Below are positions 49,829 to 58,446 of a stretch of DNA of 64,000 nucleotides, one piece after another (the first letter of the stretch is position 1; each line of letters begins with the position of its first letter). The position numbers and the translations under genes were made by a program. This stretch comes from Candidatus Obscuribacterales bacterium (GTDB lineage Bacteria > Cyanobacteriota > Vampirovibrionia > Obscuribacterales > Obscuribacteraceae). The notes beneath the pieces are model-generated. The model did no database searches and was not told the origin of the DNA. It saw nothing but the letters and a program-made list of their open reading frames with translations. The stretch covers positions 1 to 64,000 of the forward strand of contig JAGVKB010000081.1 of assembly GCA_020050835.1 (NCBI GenBank), given 5' to 3'.

Positions 49829-50851
49829 TTAGGCGCCAGAACTTTGCTGCATACGCTTCTGCAATTCCGCAGCATGCTCTTCCATCTGCCTGGCATTTGA
49901 TTGCTGTCCCGCCTCAGCGAATCCTTCGGCTATTCTTTCAAACATCTTTATGCGCGCCGGTGTAGCAGGGTCGGGCTCCTGCTCTTCCTGGCATCTTGCA
50001 ATTGCTGCCTCCAGACACAGCTTCATTTCGGAGGCGCCTGTACTGAATCTGCGTCCATGCGCCGGAAGTACTAATTGGAAGCAGTATCGCTTAAGCTTGA
50101 CGAGCGAATTCGTCAGCTCCTGCCAGGACCACCAGCAATAAAATGGCTCCCAAACTTCGAGCCCTTCGTTGAAGCGCTGTCTGGATGTAAAAACGTCACC
50201 GGAGAACAGATAATAGTTCTTGAACAGGAGCATGCAATGCCCTTCGGTATGGCCAGGTTGGGGAATCACGATGAAGTCTTGATCGAAGGCTCGTTCGTCT
50301 GTTCCATCTATTACGATCTCAGCTTCTGGCTGAGACTCCAATTCAGCTCGATGAATCAGCCGCTTAGCGCCAAACTTCGAAGCATATTGGTGAGCTTCGG
50401 CTACATCATCCCGATGCGTCAAGAAAATGTATTTGATACCACCACGCTCCTCTATCCATTTCACCAATCTCGGTGTGAACTTCGGACTATCAATCATCCA
50501 ATTGCCATGATCGCTCACGATGAAATAGCTCTTCCCCCCGGCCGAAGCGGGAGAATTAAATCCAAGGTAAAAGACACCATCGCCCAGATGTTCGGGAAAC
50601 GAATCGACGGCCGCTCTCAAATCATGCTTCTCGTGACCGCCAATCGAGCCCTCAGGACAACAGACCAGCGCATCCAAAGTCTCTTTCAACTCGTTTGTGC
50701 CCTCCGGCTGTTTGACGACTGCGTAATAAATCCCGACCTTGGCAAAAATTTCCGGTGCGAGATCTCGGCAGTTGCCGCAACTGATGCAGCTCGTGTCGAC
50801 AAAGAAATCGCCTGGTGCATTTCCCGGCACAATTTTCGACTTATCCGCCAT
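49829..50851 (-). CDS. Ferredoxin-metallo-beta-lactamase fold fusion protein
   Basis: 340 residues. The N-terminal domain (about 1-75) is a ferredoxin with a single four-cysteine cluster site: CISCGNC and then CCPEGSI, so probably one [4Fe-4S] or [3Fe-4S] cluster. The second domain is a metallo-beta-lactamase fold. Its first motif reads LTHRDDVAEAH instead of HxHxDH, then PGHTEGH, SGDVF and LPAHGRRF provide the other ligand positions. This variant motif and fusion are known in a plant/cyanobacterial-type hydrolase group. A helical tail follows. It is likely a cytoplasmic redox-linked hydrolase of unknown substrate. Confidence 0.88.
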   Translation of the reverse strand: MADKSKIVPGNAPGDFFVDTSCISCGNCRDLAPEIFAKVGIYYAVVKQPEGTNELKETLDALVCCPEGSIGGHEKHDLRAAVDSFPEHLGDGVFYLGFNSPASAGGKSYFIVSDHGNWMIDSPKFTPRLVKWIEERGGIKYIFLTHRDDVAEAHQYASKFGAKRLIHRAELESQPEAEIVIDGTDERAFDQDFIVIPQPGHTEGHCMLLFKNYYLFSGDVFTSRQRFNEGLEVWEPFYCWWSWQELTNSLVKLKRYCFQLVLPAHGRRFSTGASEMKLCLEAAIARCQEEQEPDPATPARIKMFERIAEGFAEAGQQSNARQMEEHAAELQKRMQQSSGA

Positions 50852-51219: not shown

Positions 51220-53262
51220 ATGCTTCCACTCTACGACCATAATCACAGCAGAACCGTCCCATTTGTAACGTGGCTGCTCGTACTGCTTAATGTGCTGGCG
51301 TTTTTCTTCGAACTCAGTTTAATGGTCAAAGGAGAGGCCAATCTTGATTCATTTATAAATCAGTACGGTACTGTCCCCTCCAGGCTCCTGGGTGAGCACT
51401 CTGCCGAGCAGATCCTGACACTTTTCAGCTCAATGTTTCTCCACGGCGGTTGGTCGCACATCCTGGGTAACATGTGGTTTTTGCTCCTATTCGGCGACAA
51501 CGTCGAAGATCGCCTTGGACATTTGAAGTATCTCTTCTTCTATCTGCTCTGCGGTATTGGAGCAGATCTCTCTCAAATCATTTTCAATCCTCATTCAAGC
51601 GTTCCAAGTATCGGAGCCAGTGGTTGCATCGCAGGAATTCTCGGTGCTTATGTCGTGATGTTCCCCACTGCCAAAGTTGTGACTTTCAATCCTCTGATGG
51701 ACTTAGGCGTAAGTGGGCTTGCGTTAACGCTATTCCGTAGGTTCCTGATTAGAGTGCCGGCATTTATCTTTCTGGGAACCTGGTTTGCCTTCCAATGGCT
51801 GGCCGGTTCGCTTGCTTTCAACAGTTACAGCGGTGAAGCTGCTCATGGCGGAGTAGCTTGGTGGGCCCATATCGGAGGTTTCATAACCGGGCTCATGGTC
51901 ATCGTTCTACCTCCTGGCCCGGCGATTATCGAAGAACATCCCGATTCGAGCGATCCTCGCGAACAGCTCGACATTCCCAGAAGCTGGAACGTCAGAGACG
52001 ATCAGTTGCCGGATAAGAGTCAGGAGCAGGGAGACTACGTTACACCTGACTGGTTCTGGAAAGTGATGGTTACGATTGCGGTTATCTGGACAAGCGTTCT
52101 CCTCTACCAGATCTCGCAATACAAGCGCCATATCGGCGATTGGAAGAGTCCACCGGTGGTCGAAAGCGTTGCCACCTTCAACGGCTTCAACAACCGCTTC
52201 ATGCGCTCTGAAGACCTTCTCAATGCCTGCAAATCCCCGAGCGTAAAACTCAATCGCCTTAGTTCACTCTGGTTTCTTAACGATTCTTCTGCGACTAGAA
52301 AGACTATACCGGCGAGGGCAACGAAAGAGGTCAAGCCGGTCAGGCTAGCAAAGGCACCAAATCACCCCAAGCAATCGAAGGCAAAGAAGAAGGTCGCAAC
52401 GATCCGCCCTATGCCACTGCCGATTTATGCGGCGCAACTGGATTTAGCGGATCCTTCAAGACCAGCCACCTACTTGCTAAATCCCAAATCCAAAGAACCG
52501 CTCAGTTTGTTCGGCTCCGCCGGAGGCAGGAAGCAAGAAAAGGTCTTGGATGCTGCGTTAGTGGATGAACAGCTTTATGTATTCGTAGTAAGCAGTCCAG
52601 CGAAAGCGTCGCAGGAAGATTTTGACCAGCAAATAGATCTAATCAAAGTTGAGAATCCGGCAGAAAGTCCAGAGAAATGGAGGACTACCCGCAAGACCAT
52701 TAGAACTATTGGAATCGTCGATACGTTTGGTGAGTCATGCGTTTACATGGACAACTATTTGTATGTATTCGGCACCAACTCTGGAAGTGCCCACACCGGT
52801 TTTGGCAAGCAAGTGTTTGTAGCGCGGATAGACAAGAAAAATCTCTCTGCTATGAATCTTTCGGCTCTCACTTATCTAACGACATTAGATGGAAGCCCGT
52901 TGTGGAGTAAGAACAAGAACTATGCCAAACCAACCTTTCTCTGCGACGCAGTGACCAGCCTGAACGTCCGACGGGCTGAGGGCTGCGCCGGCGTGTTTGC
53001 ATTCTACACTTCAGCCAATGACCAGCATATCTACGTTCGACACGGAATCCTGCCGGAGGGTCCCTGGAGCGGAGAAGTACGGCTGCCTAATATTTTGCTA
53101 GGGCAAAGCGGCGCAACCATCTCGGTTCATCCAGAATTTGCCGACAAAGCCGGTCAAACTGTGATCACTTTCAATCGCCAACTACCGACATCCGGGAAGC
53201 ACAAGTCTCCTGCCGCTCCGCTCACAGCCGGCATGTTATCAATAAGACTTTCCGCGAGATAG
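51220..53262 (+). CDS. Rhomboid-family intramembrane serine protease fused to a C-terminal beta-propeller-like domain
   Basis: The ATG at 51,220 begins MLPLYDHNHSRTVPFVTW, the usual start of bacterial rhomboids; the TTG start 60 bases earlier is unlikely. Residues about 1-240 carry the rhomboid core: HGGWSHILGNMWFLLLFGDNVEDRLG, then the serine in IGASGCIAGILGAY and the His in VAWWAHIGGFITG (Ser-His dyad). The later part, about 320-680, is polar and includes LYVFGTNSGSAHTGFGKQ, a DQHIYVRHGILPEGPWSGEV stretch and a VHPEF...VITFNRQLP ending. This resembles DUF4185-type five-bladed propellers that bind carbohydrate or act as glycosidases. An extra TM anchors the link (WKVMVTIAVIWTSVLLYQI). Confidence 0.85.
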   Translation: MLPLYDHNHSRTVPFVTWLLVLLNVLAFFFELSLMVKGEANLDSFINQYGTVPSRLLGEHSAEQILTLFSSMFLHGGWSHILGNMWFLLLFGDNVEDRLGHLKYLFFYLLCGIGADLSQIIFNPHSSVPSIGASGCIAGILGAYVVMFPTAKVVTFNPLMDLGVSGLALTLFRRFLIRVPAFIFLGTWFAFQWLAGSLAFNSYSGEAAHGGVAWWAHIGGFITGLMVIVLPPGPAIIEEHPDSSDPREQLDIPRSWNVRDDQLPDKSQEQGDYVTPDWFWKVMVTIAVIWTSVLLYQISQYKRHIGDWKSPPVVESVATFNGFNNRFMRSEDLLNACKSPSVKLNRLSSLWFLNDSSATRKTIPARATKEVKPVRLAKAPNHPKQSKAKKKVATIRPMPLPIYAAQLDLADPSRPATYLLNPKSKEPLSLFGSAGGRKQEKVLDAALVDEQLYVFVVSSPAKASQEDFDQQIDLIKVENPAESPEKWRTTRKTIRTIGIVDTFGESCVYMDNYLYVFGTNSGSAHTGFGKQVFVARIDKKNLSAMNLSALTYLTTLDGSPLWSKNKNYAKPTFLCDAVTSLNVRRAEGCAGVFAFYTSANDQHIYVRHGILPEGPWSGEVRLPNILLGQSGATISVHPEFADKAGQTVITFNRQLPTSGKHKSPAAPLTAGMLSIRLSAR

Positions 53263-53356: not shown

Positions 53357-55855
53357 ATGTACAATCCAAGGATAAGTTTGCTGACACTATTCCTGGTTTG
53401 CTCACTTGTATTGTCAAGCTCAAGTCAACTGTTTGCTTATCCTTTAGAACCGAGCTCGGATGCTGCTTCTTTGCAGGCTGCTGAGATTCTCGGCGTCGAG
53501 CGAGAGGTCAATCGGCTGTTGATCTTACGCAACCAGAAAGATGCGTTAGATCTTCATGCGGATGAGCTTCTATCGCTGCGTGGATCAATCATGCGCAGCA
53601 TTCTACTGGGCTGCCTGGCAGTACGTGAAGCCTGCAACCTCATTGATGCAGAACTAGCTTACACCTACGAAATCAGCGAGCGCGAGCAGGAGAGAACCAA
53701 CAATGCCAACCGCATGTTCAACCTCTTCAACTTCTTGCAAGGCGGCATCCTCTATGCGATTGAGGGCCGTTCGAAAATTCACAAACAAGACACTCAGTCA
53801 TTTGTGCTTACAACTGTTCAAGCAGGATTGTCAGCTGGTTTGCCGGCACTCAATATCCAGTACAACAAGTACAGCAAGATACGCAATCTCGCAAAGTCCG
53901 AGTTTCGTCCGAAGGTTCCAGCCGGAGGGCCAGTTGATGGCAATAACATGCCGGAGCTTGTAAGCCGATACCTGGCATCAACCGAGCCGGGACAGTCAAG
54001 GACCCGCAAAGACGAAATGTATTCTCTGTGGAAGAGAAGATTCGGCGTTGACCCAGCCATTCCGTCCAGCCTCTGCAATCTAAACGACGGCAAAGCAAAA
54101 AGCATTTCAGCCGTAAAAAAGCGCATTCAACTTCTCTGGTCACTTCACACATATGTCGAACGTTTTGATAGTGATCTTCTTTCATTGCTGGCATTGGTAC
54201 GATCACCGGCTCAGCTAGGCGACAGACGAGCACCGGATCTATTGAGCGGTCTGGGTCTCAGTAGCGGTGCAATTGAAGCAGCGCAGCTGCTGGGAATCGA
54301 ACCAGAGCTTGCAGAGTTGATCAAGCTAAATGGAAGTAATTCGGATCGACTGACGAGACTAAAAGTCGAAACAGTTGTTTTAGAGCGAGTGCTCTCCGGA
54401 TGCCTTGAGCTCCGAGTTGCAGTTGATAACATCAATGAAGATTTGAACTATTCCTTCGATGTCATTTTGGCTCAACTGCTTTCTGATAGAGCCAAGCAGT
54501 TACAGCGAACAACAGAAGCTAACTTCATCACAAAGGGCACGCTGGGCGCGACTGGTGGACTGCTCGATCTAAAGGGATATGGCAAAGCAGGCAATGAAAC
54601 TTTCATCGTTTCATACGGCTTAGGATCGGCTCTGACTTCTCTGGCACTCTGGCAAAGTCGCGGAGGCAAGAGGAAGATCGATACTGCTCCAAACTCCCTC
54701 GCCGATTTTTTCGACCTGCGCAATAGCGATCAAAATTCGTTCACTCCACTCATTGCAAGCTTTCTGAACTCTCCGGCACCAGGACGGTCCGATCGTGTAA
54801 CCAGAAAGGAAGAACTACGTGATATATGGAAACGCGAACACATATCAACCGTCAATCTCGACAGTAATACCAATATGACTAAGTTGGCAGGCTGCCCACC
54901 TGCAAAGTTCGACACAATTGCTATCGTGTCGAGCCGAATCAGTTTGCTCCAGTCCCTGCGGGTTCGGCTCACATCTTTCGACAGCGAACTGTTCGACATC
55001 CTGCGCTCCACGGAGCGTTCGGAGCCAACTGTCGCGAATCCAAGGGCTACAACTATGCCGCTGCCTCAAAATACGAACGGCTCTGCTTCCGCGACTGGGG
55101 AGATCTTGGACGCCCAGTCACAACTGCAGCAATTAATACAGTTGAAGACGACGGCAGCGCCTTTCGACTTATCAGTGGCGGAGCAACAGCTAGCCATTAC
55201 CAGAAAGGTACTGTCAGCATTTCTCGAAGTACGCATGACAGCTGCCAATGTCGAAACCGAAATCGCTTCAGAGACGCAAGTGTTAGGCCGTATGACCAGA
55301 GCGCGCGACATGGCAATTACGCTAACAAATAATGCAAACTTCTATCAAGTATATGTGCTCGGAATCTTACTTTATGGACCCCTGGGACTATCGTCAGTAC
55401 CAAGATATAACTTGTATGCAGACAGGTTAAAGGTGATCGCCGGATTGGTAGGAACCGGCCTAGCCTCCGCCTCATTTCTGGAGTATCGAGGCGGTTTAAG
55501 ACCGACGAAAGTAGCTCCTAATATGCTCGGTGCTTGTTTTGGACTGCAAAGTAAAGCAACAAGCCAATTTTGTCCACACGTATTGAAGTTTCTCAACTCG
55601 CCTGTCTCCGGCCAAGCCAGCAACGCAACCCGCAGAGAGGTGCTGCTTTCATACTGGCGCAGCACCAAGCATGCTAATTTAGACCTAAGCAAGCGCTCCG
55701 TGATCGAGAAAGTTGCAGCCACCGGATCTTCGCACCACTGGTGGAATGAATCGATCAAGCTGATCAGAAGCAGAGTCGATCTGCTTTACGACTTGCGAGC
55801 AGTTATTGATGAAATGGATTCTGGACTCTCCGAACTATTGAGAGCATCAAGTTGA
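53357..55855 (+). CDS. Secreted protein with a threefold internal repeat
   Basis: About 832 residues from ATG 53,357, chosen for the signal peptide that follows (ISLLTLFLVCSLVLSSSSQLFA); the frame is open to 53,270. Three homologous segments of about 260-280 residues follow each other. Each has a first block such as QAAEILGVEREVNRLLILRNQ, then a long helix ending in LGCLAVREACNLIDAELAYTYE (second copy LSGCLELRVAVDNINEDLNYSF; third LSAFLEVRMTAANVETEIASET), then a Gly-rich segment, then FLNSPAPGRS-type sequence, then KRRxxxLWSLR and VERFDSDLLSLL. No family is known to me. It starts 95 bases after the rhomboid gene. Confidence 0.7.
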   Translation: MYNPRISLLTLFLVCSLVLSSSSQLFAYPLEPSSDAASLQAAEILGVEREVNRLLILRNQKDALDLHADELLSLRGSIMRSILLGCLAVREACNLIDAELAYTYEISEREQERTNNANRMFNLFNFLQGGILYAIEGRSKIHKQDTQSFVLTTVQAGLSAGLPALNIQYNKYSKIRNLAKSEFRPKVPAGGPVDGNNMPELVSRYLASTEPGQSRTRKDEMYSLWKRRFGVDPAIPSSLCNLNDGKAKSISAVKKRIQLLWSLHTYVERFDSDLLSLLALVRSPAQLGDRRAPDLLSGLGLSSGAIEAAQLLGIEPELAELIKLNGSNSDRLTRLKVETVVLERVLSGCLELRVAVDNINEDLNYSFDVILAQLLSDRAKQLQRTTEANFITKGTLGATGGLLDLKGYGKAGNETFIVSYGLGSALTSLALWQSRGGKRKIDTAPNSLADFFDLRNSDQNSFTPLIASFLNSPAPGRSDRVTRKEELRDIWKREHISTVNLDSNTNMTKLAGCPPAKFDTIAIVSSRISLLQSLRVRLTSFDSELFDILRSTERSEPTVANPRATTMPLPQNTNGSASATGEILDAQSQLQQLIQLKTTAAPFDLSVAEQQLAITRKVLSAFLEVRMTAANVETEIASETQVLGRMTRARDMAITLTNNANFYQVYVLGILLYGPLGLSSVPRYNLYADRLKVIAGLVGTGLASASFLEYRGGLRPTKVAPNMLGACFGLQSKATSQFCPHVLKFLNSPVSGQASNATRREVLLSYWRSTKHANLDLSKRSVIEKVAATGSSHHWWNESIKLIRSRVDLLYDLRAVIDEMDSGLSELLRASS

Positions 55856-57965: not shown

Positions 57966-58196
57966 TCAGGCTGGCTTTTCCTGCTTTAACCGCTCCAGGA
58001 GCCACATACGAGTCAATGCGCTAACGGAAAGCCCTTTAGACTGGGCTACCGCTCGCAGCTGTCCCATTTGTTCTGGCTCAACCCGACATTGTATGACCGC
58101 GTCTTTTGTAAGCCGTTCGCCAGCTTCGCGACGGATCTTCTCTACTCGCTGGCTAAGGCGCTCTTTTCTCTCTTCTGGCGTTTCTTTAGTGCGCAT
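57966..58196 (-). CDS. BrnA-like antitoxin with C-terminal ribbon-helix-helix
   Basis: About 76 residues; two adjacent ATGs at 58,199 and 58,196 follow AAGGAG by 4-7 bases. The N-terminus is basic and helical (RTKETPEERKERLSQRVEKIRRE), the likely toxin-binding part, and the C-terminus resembles a RHH DNA-binding domain: VIQCRVEPEQMGQLRAVAQSKGLSVSALTRMWLLERLKQE. It overlaps the upstream toxin-like gene by about 14 bases, the order expected for BrnT-BrnA systems. It is expected to neutralise the toxin and repress the shared promoter. Confidence 0.7.
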   Translation of the reverse strand: MRTKETPEERKERLSQRVEKIRREAGERLTKDAVIQCRVEPEQMGQLRAVAQSKGLSVSALTRMWLLERLKQEKPA

Positions 58197-58446
58197 CATT
58201 AAACTCCTTGAGGTAGCGCTCTCCAGCATCCATGGCGTGAAAGACGAGTTCGTCCGCCCCGATTAGCTCAACCCCCACTTCCAGGGCACGACCGGCTTTG
58301 GTGAGCCCCACAAACATTAGTCTGTCGTTACCATCACGGCTAACGCCCAAGTCAAGCCAGATGGTGCGCTGGTCGTTCAACACCTGATCAACTTCACTGA
58401 TGGTTATGCCATGCCTGGCGAGGTTATCACTGTTGTAGGTGACCAT
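58186..58446 (-). CDS. BrnT-like toxin (type II toxin-antitoxin)
   Basis: 86 residues; ATG 58,446 follows AGGGGA. The pattern NLARHGITISEVDQVLNDQRT, then DGNDRLMFVGLTKAGRALEVGVEL and FHAMDAGERYLKEF resembles BrnT RNases: the N-HG-I opening helix, a strand-strand core and a terminal A-x-x-x-E-R-x-Y-x-x-E helix. Similarity is partial, so identity is not certain. BrnT is a ribonuclease toxin that inhibits translation. It is the first gene of the pair, with the promoter and palindrome immediately upstream. Confidence 0.65.
   Translation of the reverse strand: MVTYNSDNLARHGITISEVDQVLNDQRTIWLDLGVSRDGNDRLMFVGLTKAGRALEVGVELIGADELVFHAMDAGERYLKEFNDAH

Follow-up and report, generated by a model that had tools for sequence, protein, structure and literature searches.

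The window, that is the whole 64,000-nucleotide stretch of DNA analysed here, encodes a protein in which a rhomboid protease core is joined to a five-bladed propeller whose fold is that of a glycoside hydrolase and which, inside this protease, has apparently become a pseudoenzyme. We propose, at a probability of about one half, that the protein is a YqgP-like rhomboid in which an extracytoplasmic, formerly glycosidic propeller acts as a recognition or regulatory domain, and that it serves membrane-protein turnover. The starting points of this proposal, namely the fusion, the fold, the residue losses, the conservation and the gene order with FtsH, were all computed. Substrate choice by bacterial rhomboids and the roles of their extra domains are largely open questions, and the rhomboid described here has a candidate recognition domain that can be named and assayed.

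One frame for a rhomboid and a propeller

From the ATG at 51220 to the stop codon at 53262 the window sequence contains one continuous open frame of 680 codons, and this ATG is the likely start because relatives align from residue 1 or 2. The initial annotation had described a rhomboid core with a Ser-His dyad, joined through an extra transmembrane (TM) helix to a large domain. Both residues of the dyad were found together with a match to the Pfam Rhomboid family, a hydrophobic segment lies where the extra helix was placed, and the domain borders agree with AlphaFold2, Foldseek and Pfam. The features of the gene are as follows.

51220..53262, + strand: rhomboid-propeller fusion gene, 680 aa, in a single frame; same architecture at loci L048 and L050
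51220..51909, + strand: rhomboid core with six TM helices, residues 1-230 (Pfam PF01694, E=2.4e-33)
51457..51471, + strand: HxxxN motif with His80 and Asn84, in TM2 (sequence)
51619..51621, + strand: catalytic Ser134, in GASG (sequence)
51868..51870, + strand: catalytic His217, in AHIGG of TM6 (sequence)
51910..52050, + strand: polar linker, predicted to be cytoplasmic, residues 231-277 (from hydropathy and standard rhomboid topology)
52051..52107, + strand: seventh TM helix, residues 278-296 (hydropathy; a helix in the AlphaFold2 model)
52156..53259, + strand: GH183-type (DUF4185) five-bladed propeller, residues 313-680 (AlphaFold2, Foldseek, Pfam, profile against the PDB)
52228..52230, + strand: Cys337 at the position of the GH183 nucleophile Asp (alignments)
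52282..52284, + strand: Asp355 at the acid/base position, kept (alignments)
52291..52407, + strand: Lys/Arg-rich insert of low confidence, residues 358-396 (pLDDT <50)
52957..52959, + strand: Ser580 at the position of the third active-site acid, Glu243 of EndoMA1 (alignments)

A search for the same fusion in relatives found it in two further genomes, G021 and G073, which belong to a second genus. The single 680-aa frame and this conservation rule out a frameshift or two separate genes, the latter having been raised at the outset for the C-terminal part. Nor is the fusion an assembly artefact, because the second genus has it too and dN/dS is about 0.07 over both halves. It is also very improbable that translation from an internal start, Met283, makes the propeller as a protein of its own anchored in the membrane, with the fusion being in part a translational overlap. 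Met283 does lie at the start of TM7 in the window with a weak ribosome-binding-like GGAAAG ahead of it, and stand-alone propellers have N-terminal hydrophobic signals, but the frame runs on through the 47-residue linker, the G021 fusion has GTG and TTG codons there and no ATG, and the architecture is conserved in two genera.

The Pfam Rhomboid family (PF01694, S54) covers residues 63-229 with 115.8 bits against a cut-off of 22.6, and the rhomboid half is 47-53% identical to the best rhomboids of relatives within the family, most of which stand alone. All of the rhomboid active-site residues are present, including the His and Asn of the HxxxN motif, whose role is established rhomboid biochemistry. 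Judged by these residues, the protein looks like a catalytically competent intramembrane protease of the 6+1 TM type. The core also has a weak profile likeness to Rhombosortase (TIGR03902; 24.7 and 33.5 bits), although with 24.7 bits, far under the cut-off of 84, this assignment was rejected.

In rhomboids the active site opens towards the outer face of the cytoplasmic membrane. After six TM helices the chain would be back inside, and TM7 would carry it out again, so that the propeller would be extracytoplasmic and on the same side as the rhomboid active site, and the side of the membrane is suggested as well by relatives of the propeller, which are secreted. However, positive charges just after TM7 in both fusions slightly disfavour an outside propeller under the positive-inside rule.

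The propeller fold and its active-site positions

The C-terminal domain is a five-bladed propeller of the DUF4185/GH183 type and is homologous to EndoMA1. This agrees with the initial annotation, which had seen a DUF4185-like five-bladed propeller and had called for structure prediction and a profile search of this part; both gave the propeller and no other fold. Pfam DUF4185 matches residues 485-622 (E=3.9e-9) with 36.6 bits against the curated cut-off of 39.5, and with neighbours in frame the score is 39.6 bits, just over that cut-off. AlphaFold2, given an alignment of 48 rows made up of the window and related-locus sequences, modelled residues 271-680 with a pLDDT of 80.7 and a pTM of 0.81, the poorly predicted part being the insert at approximately 358-396, which is not seen in other aligned family members. 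In a Foldseek search of the PDB the endo-D-arabinanase EndoMA1 (8hhv, GH183) ranks first with E=8.7e-13 and BACOVA_04882 (4hbs) second, and a profile of the propeller family finds the same two entries (4hbs, E=3.8e-25; 8hhv, E=8.5e-23). When the C-terminal part was searched against the PDB by plain sequence there was no match, so that only the profile and fold searches connect the two.

DUF4185 is now GH183, a family of retaining endo-D-arabinanases (PMC10115798, PMC10509167), and its active site has been described in the same two papers. In EndoMA1 it consists of the nucleophile Asp33, the acid/base Asp51 and Glu243, any single loss of which nearly abolishes activity (PMC10509167). Glu243 aligns directly to the Glu of the family motif SEMSV, whereas the mapping of Asp33 and Asp51 relies on the 18 residues that separate them, a distance shared exactly by the family motif GxD...FGD and by 4hbs, and on alignment to 4hbs in place of one made directly to full-length 8hhv. 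In all 26 full-length stand-alone members of the family the pattern D-(D/E)-E is retained, the second acid being Glu in one. By alignment, the three acid positions are instead occupied by Cys337, Asp355 and Ser580 in the window propeller and by Asn, His and Glu in the fused propellers of G021 and G073. The nucleophile and one further acid are thus gone in all three fused copies, which represent two lineages, and none of them has the nucleophile Asp, acid/base Asp and third Glu of a GH183 enzyme.

By their residues the fused propellers look like pseudo-glycosidases. When the fusions of G021 and G073 are compared, dN/dS comes to 0.063 in the rhomboid half and 0.076 in the propeller half, from which it follows that the altered propeller is still under purifying selection. 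Loss of acids together with purifying selection is the pattern that would be expected of a pseudoenzyme with a binding role. The very long branch on which the window propeller lies counts against the proposed reading. As the acids are lost only in fused copies, the role appears to have changed after or with the fusion, a correlation that rests on two cases, the two fusion lineages. A still-active glycosidase or lyase of changed specificity, for which the rhomboid would serve as a membrane anchor, so that the protein would be an anchored enzyme and not a receptor, seems to us unlikely: the fold of the family is a glycosidase fold by Foldseek, and Trp351 and His637, which are invariant in the family, are retained in the window copy alongside the acid/base Asp355, but the nucleophile is Cys or Asn and a second acid is lost in each copy, and in EndoMA1 one such loss is nearly sufficient to abolish activity.

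Occurrence, descent and the link to FtsH3

The window belongs to a 7 Mb assembly (G000) whose close relatives are mostly Candidatus Obscuribacterales, which are non-photosynthetic Cyanobacteriota. The propeller occurs in 30 of 53 genomes of the order and is fused to a rhomboid in three, those of the window, G021 and G073, in each of which the fused copy is the sole one; a single copy is the rule (29 of the 30 propeller-bearing family genomes, with two fragments in G061). The fusion proteins of the second genus are 608 and 609 aa long, and that of G021 scores 109 bits for Rhomboid and 47.9 bits for DUF4185. No other rhomboid-propeller fusion was found in 386 genomes sampled across the phylum, in which two long propeller frames have other, non-rhomboid N-termini, and there was none among the 80 loci of a genome-collection scan that used active-site motifs and is biased towards intact copies. 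No viral relatives were found. Trees and AU tests do not discriminate between one and two fusion events (p 0.24 for the rhomboid, 0.18 for the propeller), and the fusion loci of the window and of the second genus have no neighbour genes in common. Stand-alone propellers were not seen to adjoin a rhomboid gene, with the one exception of G019, where a rhomboid gene lies about 4 kb from the propeller. In distant relatives (Marinimicrobia and Flavobacteriaceae MAGs; loci L139 and L149) two to four DUF4185-type propellers stand in tandem.

The fusion is present in just 2 of about 25 genera of the order, the other propellers found being separate genes or joined to other domains, which would suit a chance gene fusion whose halves work independently, with the propeller being only a folding partner or anchor. 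We consider this rather doubtful, as the fusion has been kept in two genera with low dN/dS in both halves in G021 and G073, and as acid loss confined to fused copies points to a changed role.

In genomic terms the propeller is linked most strongly to FtsH, another membrane protease, and this goes beyond what the initial annotation could see. Stand-alone propellers have an N-terminal hydrophobic segment that by hydropathy and inspection is mostly signal-peptide-like, and in 16 of 27 genomes, from 7 genera, the gene lies directly behind, and on the same strand as, a gene that we call FtsH3; the other 11 were not found next to it. FtsH3 has approximately 1150 codons, and its product carries two hydrophobic segments at the N-terminus together with three AAA domains in tandem and an M41 peptidase domain. 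Two examples are:

L076:2333-5839: FtsH3
G000:C30:22949-26305: FtsH3 of the window genome

FtsH3 is present in 47 of 50 family genomes, including G000 and G021, in neither of which a propeller follows it, and at E<=1e-200 it was not found in 194 other sampled genomes of the phylum. From its domain content and distribution it appears to be an unusual, family-specific triple-AAA membrane protease of the FtsH type. Because of the gene order and the rhomboid fusions together, the propeller is associated with a membrane protease along two routes, through an operon with FtsH3 or through fusion to a rhomboid; the gene-order link concerns stand-alone propellers with intact acids and not the fusions themselves. 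The probable ancestor of the fused propeller is the secreted one whose gene directly follows FtsH3 in relatives.

Possible role of the fused propeller and known systems compared

The topology, the binding role, the FtsH pathway and the activity of the protein are what we infer. In the proposed mechanism the propeller would lie at the membrane face to which the rhomboid active site opens. There it would bind a partner, whether glycan, glycosylated protein or (perhaps unfolded) protein substrate, and bring this partner to the rhomboid. The rhomboid would then cleave the partner so selected, possibly with FtsH3 as the finisher, and the module would contribute to the turnover of membrane proteins as YqgP and FtsH do. 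The separate relatives of the fused propeller, with their apparently intact catalytic residues, offer a natural control set, and the family has its genomic link to an FtsH-type protease in addition.

YqgP of Bacillus subtilis is a rhomboid with a cytosolic N-terminal domain and an extracellular C-terminal TPR domain that works with FtsH, acting as an adaptor that hands substrate over to it (PMC7231995). The window protein resembles it in having a C-terminal domain, in our case inferred to be extracytoplasmic, on a six-TM rhomboid core, and the pairing of a membrane protease with an FtsH-type protease is a further likeness, although here the FtsH link consists only of the gene order of the separate propeller. 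The two differ in that the C-terminal domain is made of TPRs in YqgP and is a GH183-type propeller in the window protein, and in that the metal-sensing (Mn/Zn-binding) cytosolic N-terminal domain of YqgP is absent from the window protein, which has only about 15 residues ahead of TM1. At a G008 locus (L057:4149-6044) a rhomboid of the type found in the window continues into a seventh TM helix that is followed by a TPR C-domain, which is the layout of YqgP. Given this rhomboid and the layout and role of YqgP, it is plausible that the fusion and FtsH3 act in one shared pathway. The same two cases make the view, expressed in the initial annotation, that rhomboids usually act alone too strong.

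Soluble extensions of rhomboids are known, such as the ubiquitin-binding motif of RHBDL4, the EF-hands of Drosophila rhomboid-4 and the N-domain of GlpG, which likewise add a soluble domain to the six-helix core for regulation or substrate choice (PMC12615303). None of these added domains is glycosidase-derived, unlike that of the window protein. A term search of the text of the same review found no mention of a propeller, and in the open-access literature searched we found no precedent for a rhomboid with an extramembrane domain of this type.

With the GH183/DUF4185 endo-D-arabinanases (EndoMA1, 8hhv; DgGH4185; Rv3707c; PMC10509167, PMC10115798) the window propeller shares the fold and the family motifs, but it is fused to a rhomboid, has lost the nucleophile and one more acid, and has no CBM domain. 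Recognition of a carbohydrate or glycoprotein by the fused propeller, as put forward in the initial annotation, is possible. A narrower form of this idea is that the propeller is a glycan sensor proper which binds an envelope polysaccharide and gates the rhomboid. That the family acts on glycans (PMC10115798) speaks for it, as does one locus, that of G021, at which the fusion lies in a same-strand gene run behind sugar-modifying genes. On the other hand, no such genes adjoin the window copy, and the family's sugar contacts may not have been retained. D-arabinan is not known from these bacteria, and arabinan is an unlikely natural ligand of the window propeller. We regard the glycan sensor as possible, if well short of probable.

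We also offer, as a tentative conjecture, a history in which a secreted glycosidase encoded beside the triple-AAA FtsH was recruited to membrane-protein surveillance, at first as an intact operon partner; later, in two or more genera, it would have been joined to a rhomboid and have lost its catalytic function, and the pseudo-glycosidase would now read glycan marks or the folding state of envelope proteins and pass these proteins to the rhomboid and FtsH. If the propeller does bind a glycan or glycoprotein, glycan recognition would be connected to intramembrane proteolysis, and glycan-guided intramembrane proteolysis, if true, would be a new principle in bacteria.

The surroundings of the fusions differ in content. 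Ahead of the G021 fusion (L056:1-4315) lie genes for a DegT sugar aminotransferase, a hexapeptide acyltransferase, an 841-aa membrane protein and a short DUF4388-like protein; the 841-aa protein has no Pfam match and resembles TMTC/GT-C glycosyltransferases by eye. The gene directly behind the window fusion, at 53357-55852 (+), encodes a secreted protein of three repeats. It matches nothing in Pfam or NCBIfam above cut-off, and its family is multi-copy and occurs in 50/50 genomes of the family. At 49829-50851 (-) a single protein combines a 4Fe-4S ferredoxin domain (Fer4_13, 53.5 bits) with a weak metallo-beta-lactamase match. Two overlapping small genes at 57966-58446 (-) are likely a toxin-antitoxin pair, the toxin being BrnT-like at 24.6 bits, under the cut-off of 34.5, and its partner ribbon-helix-helix-like with a weak NikA-like match.
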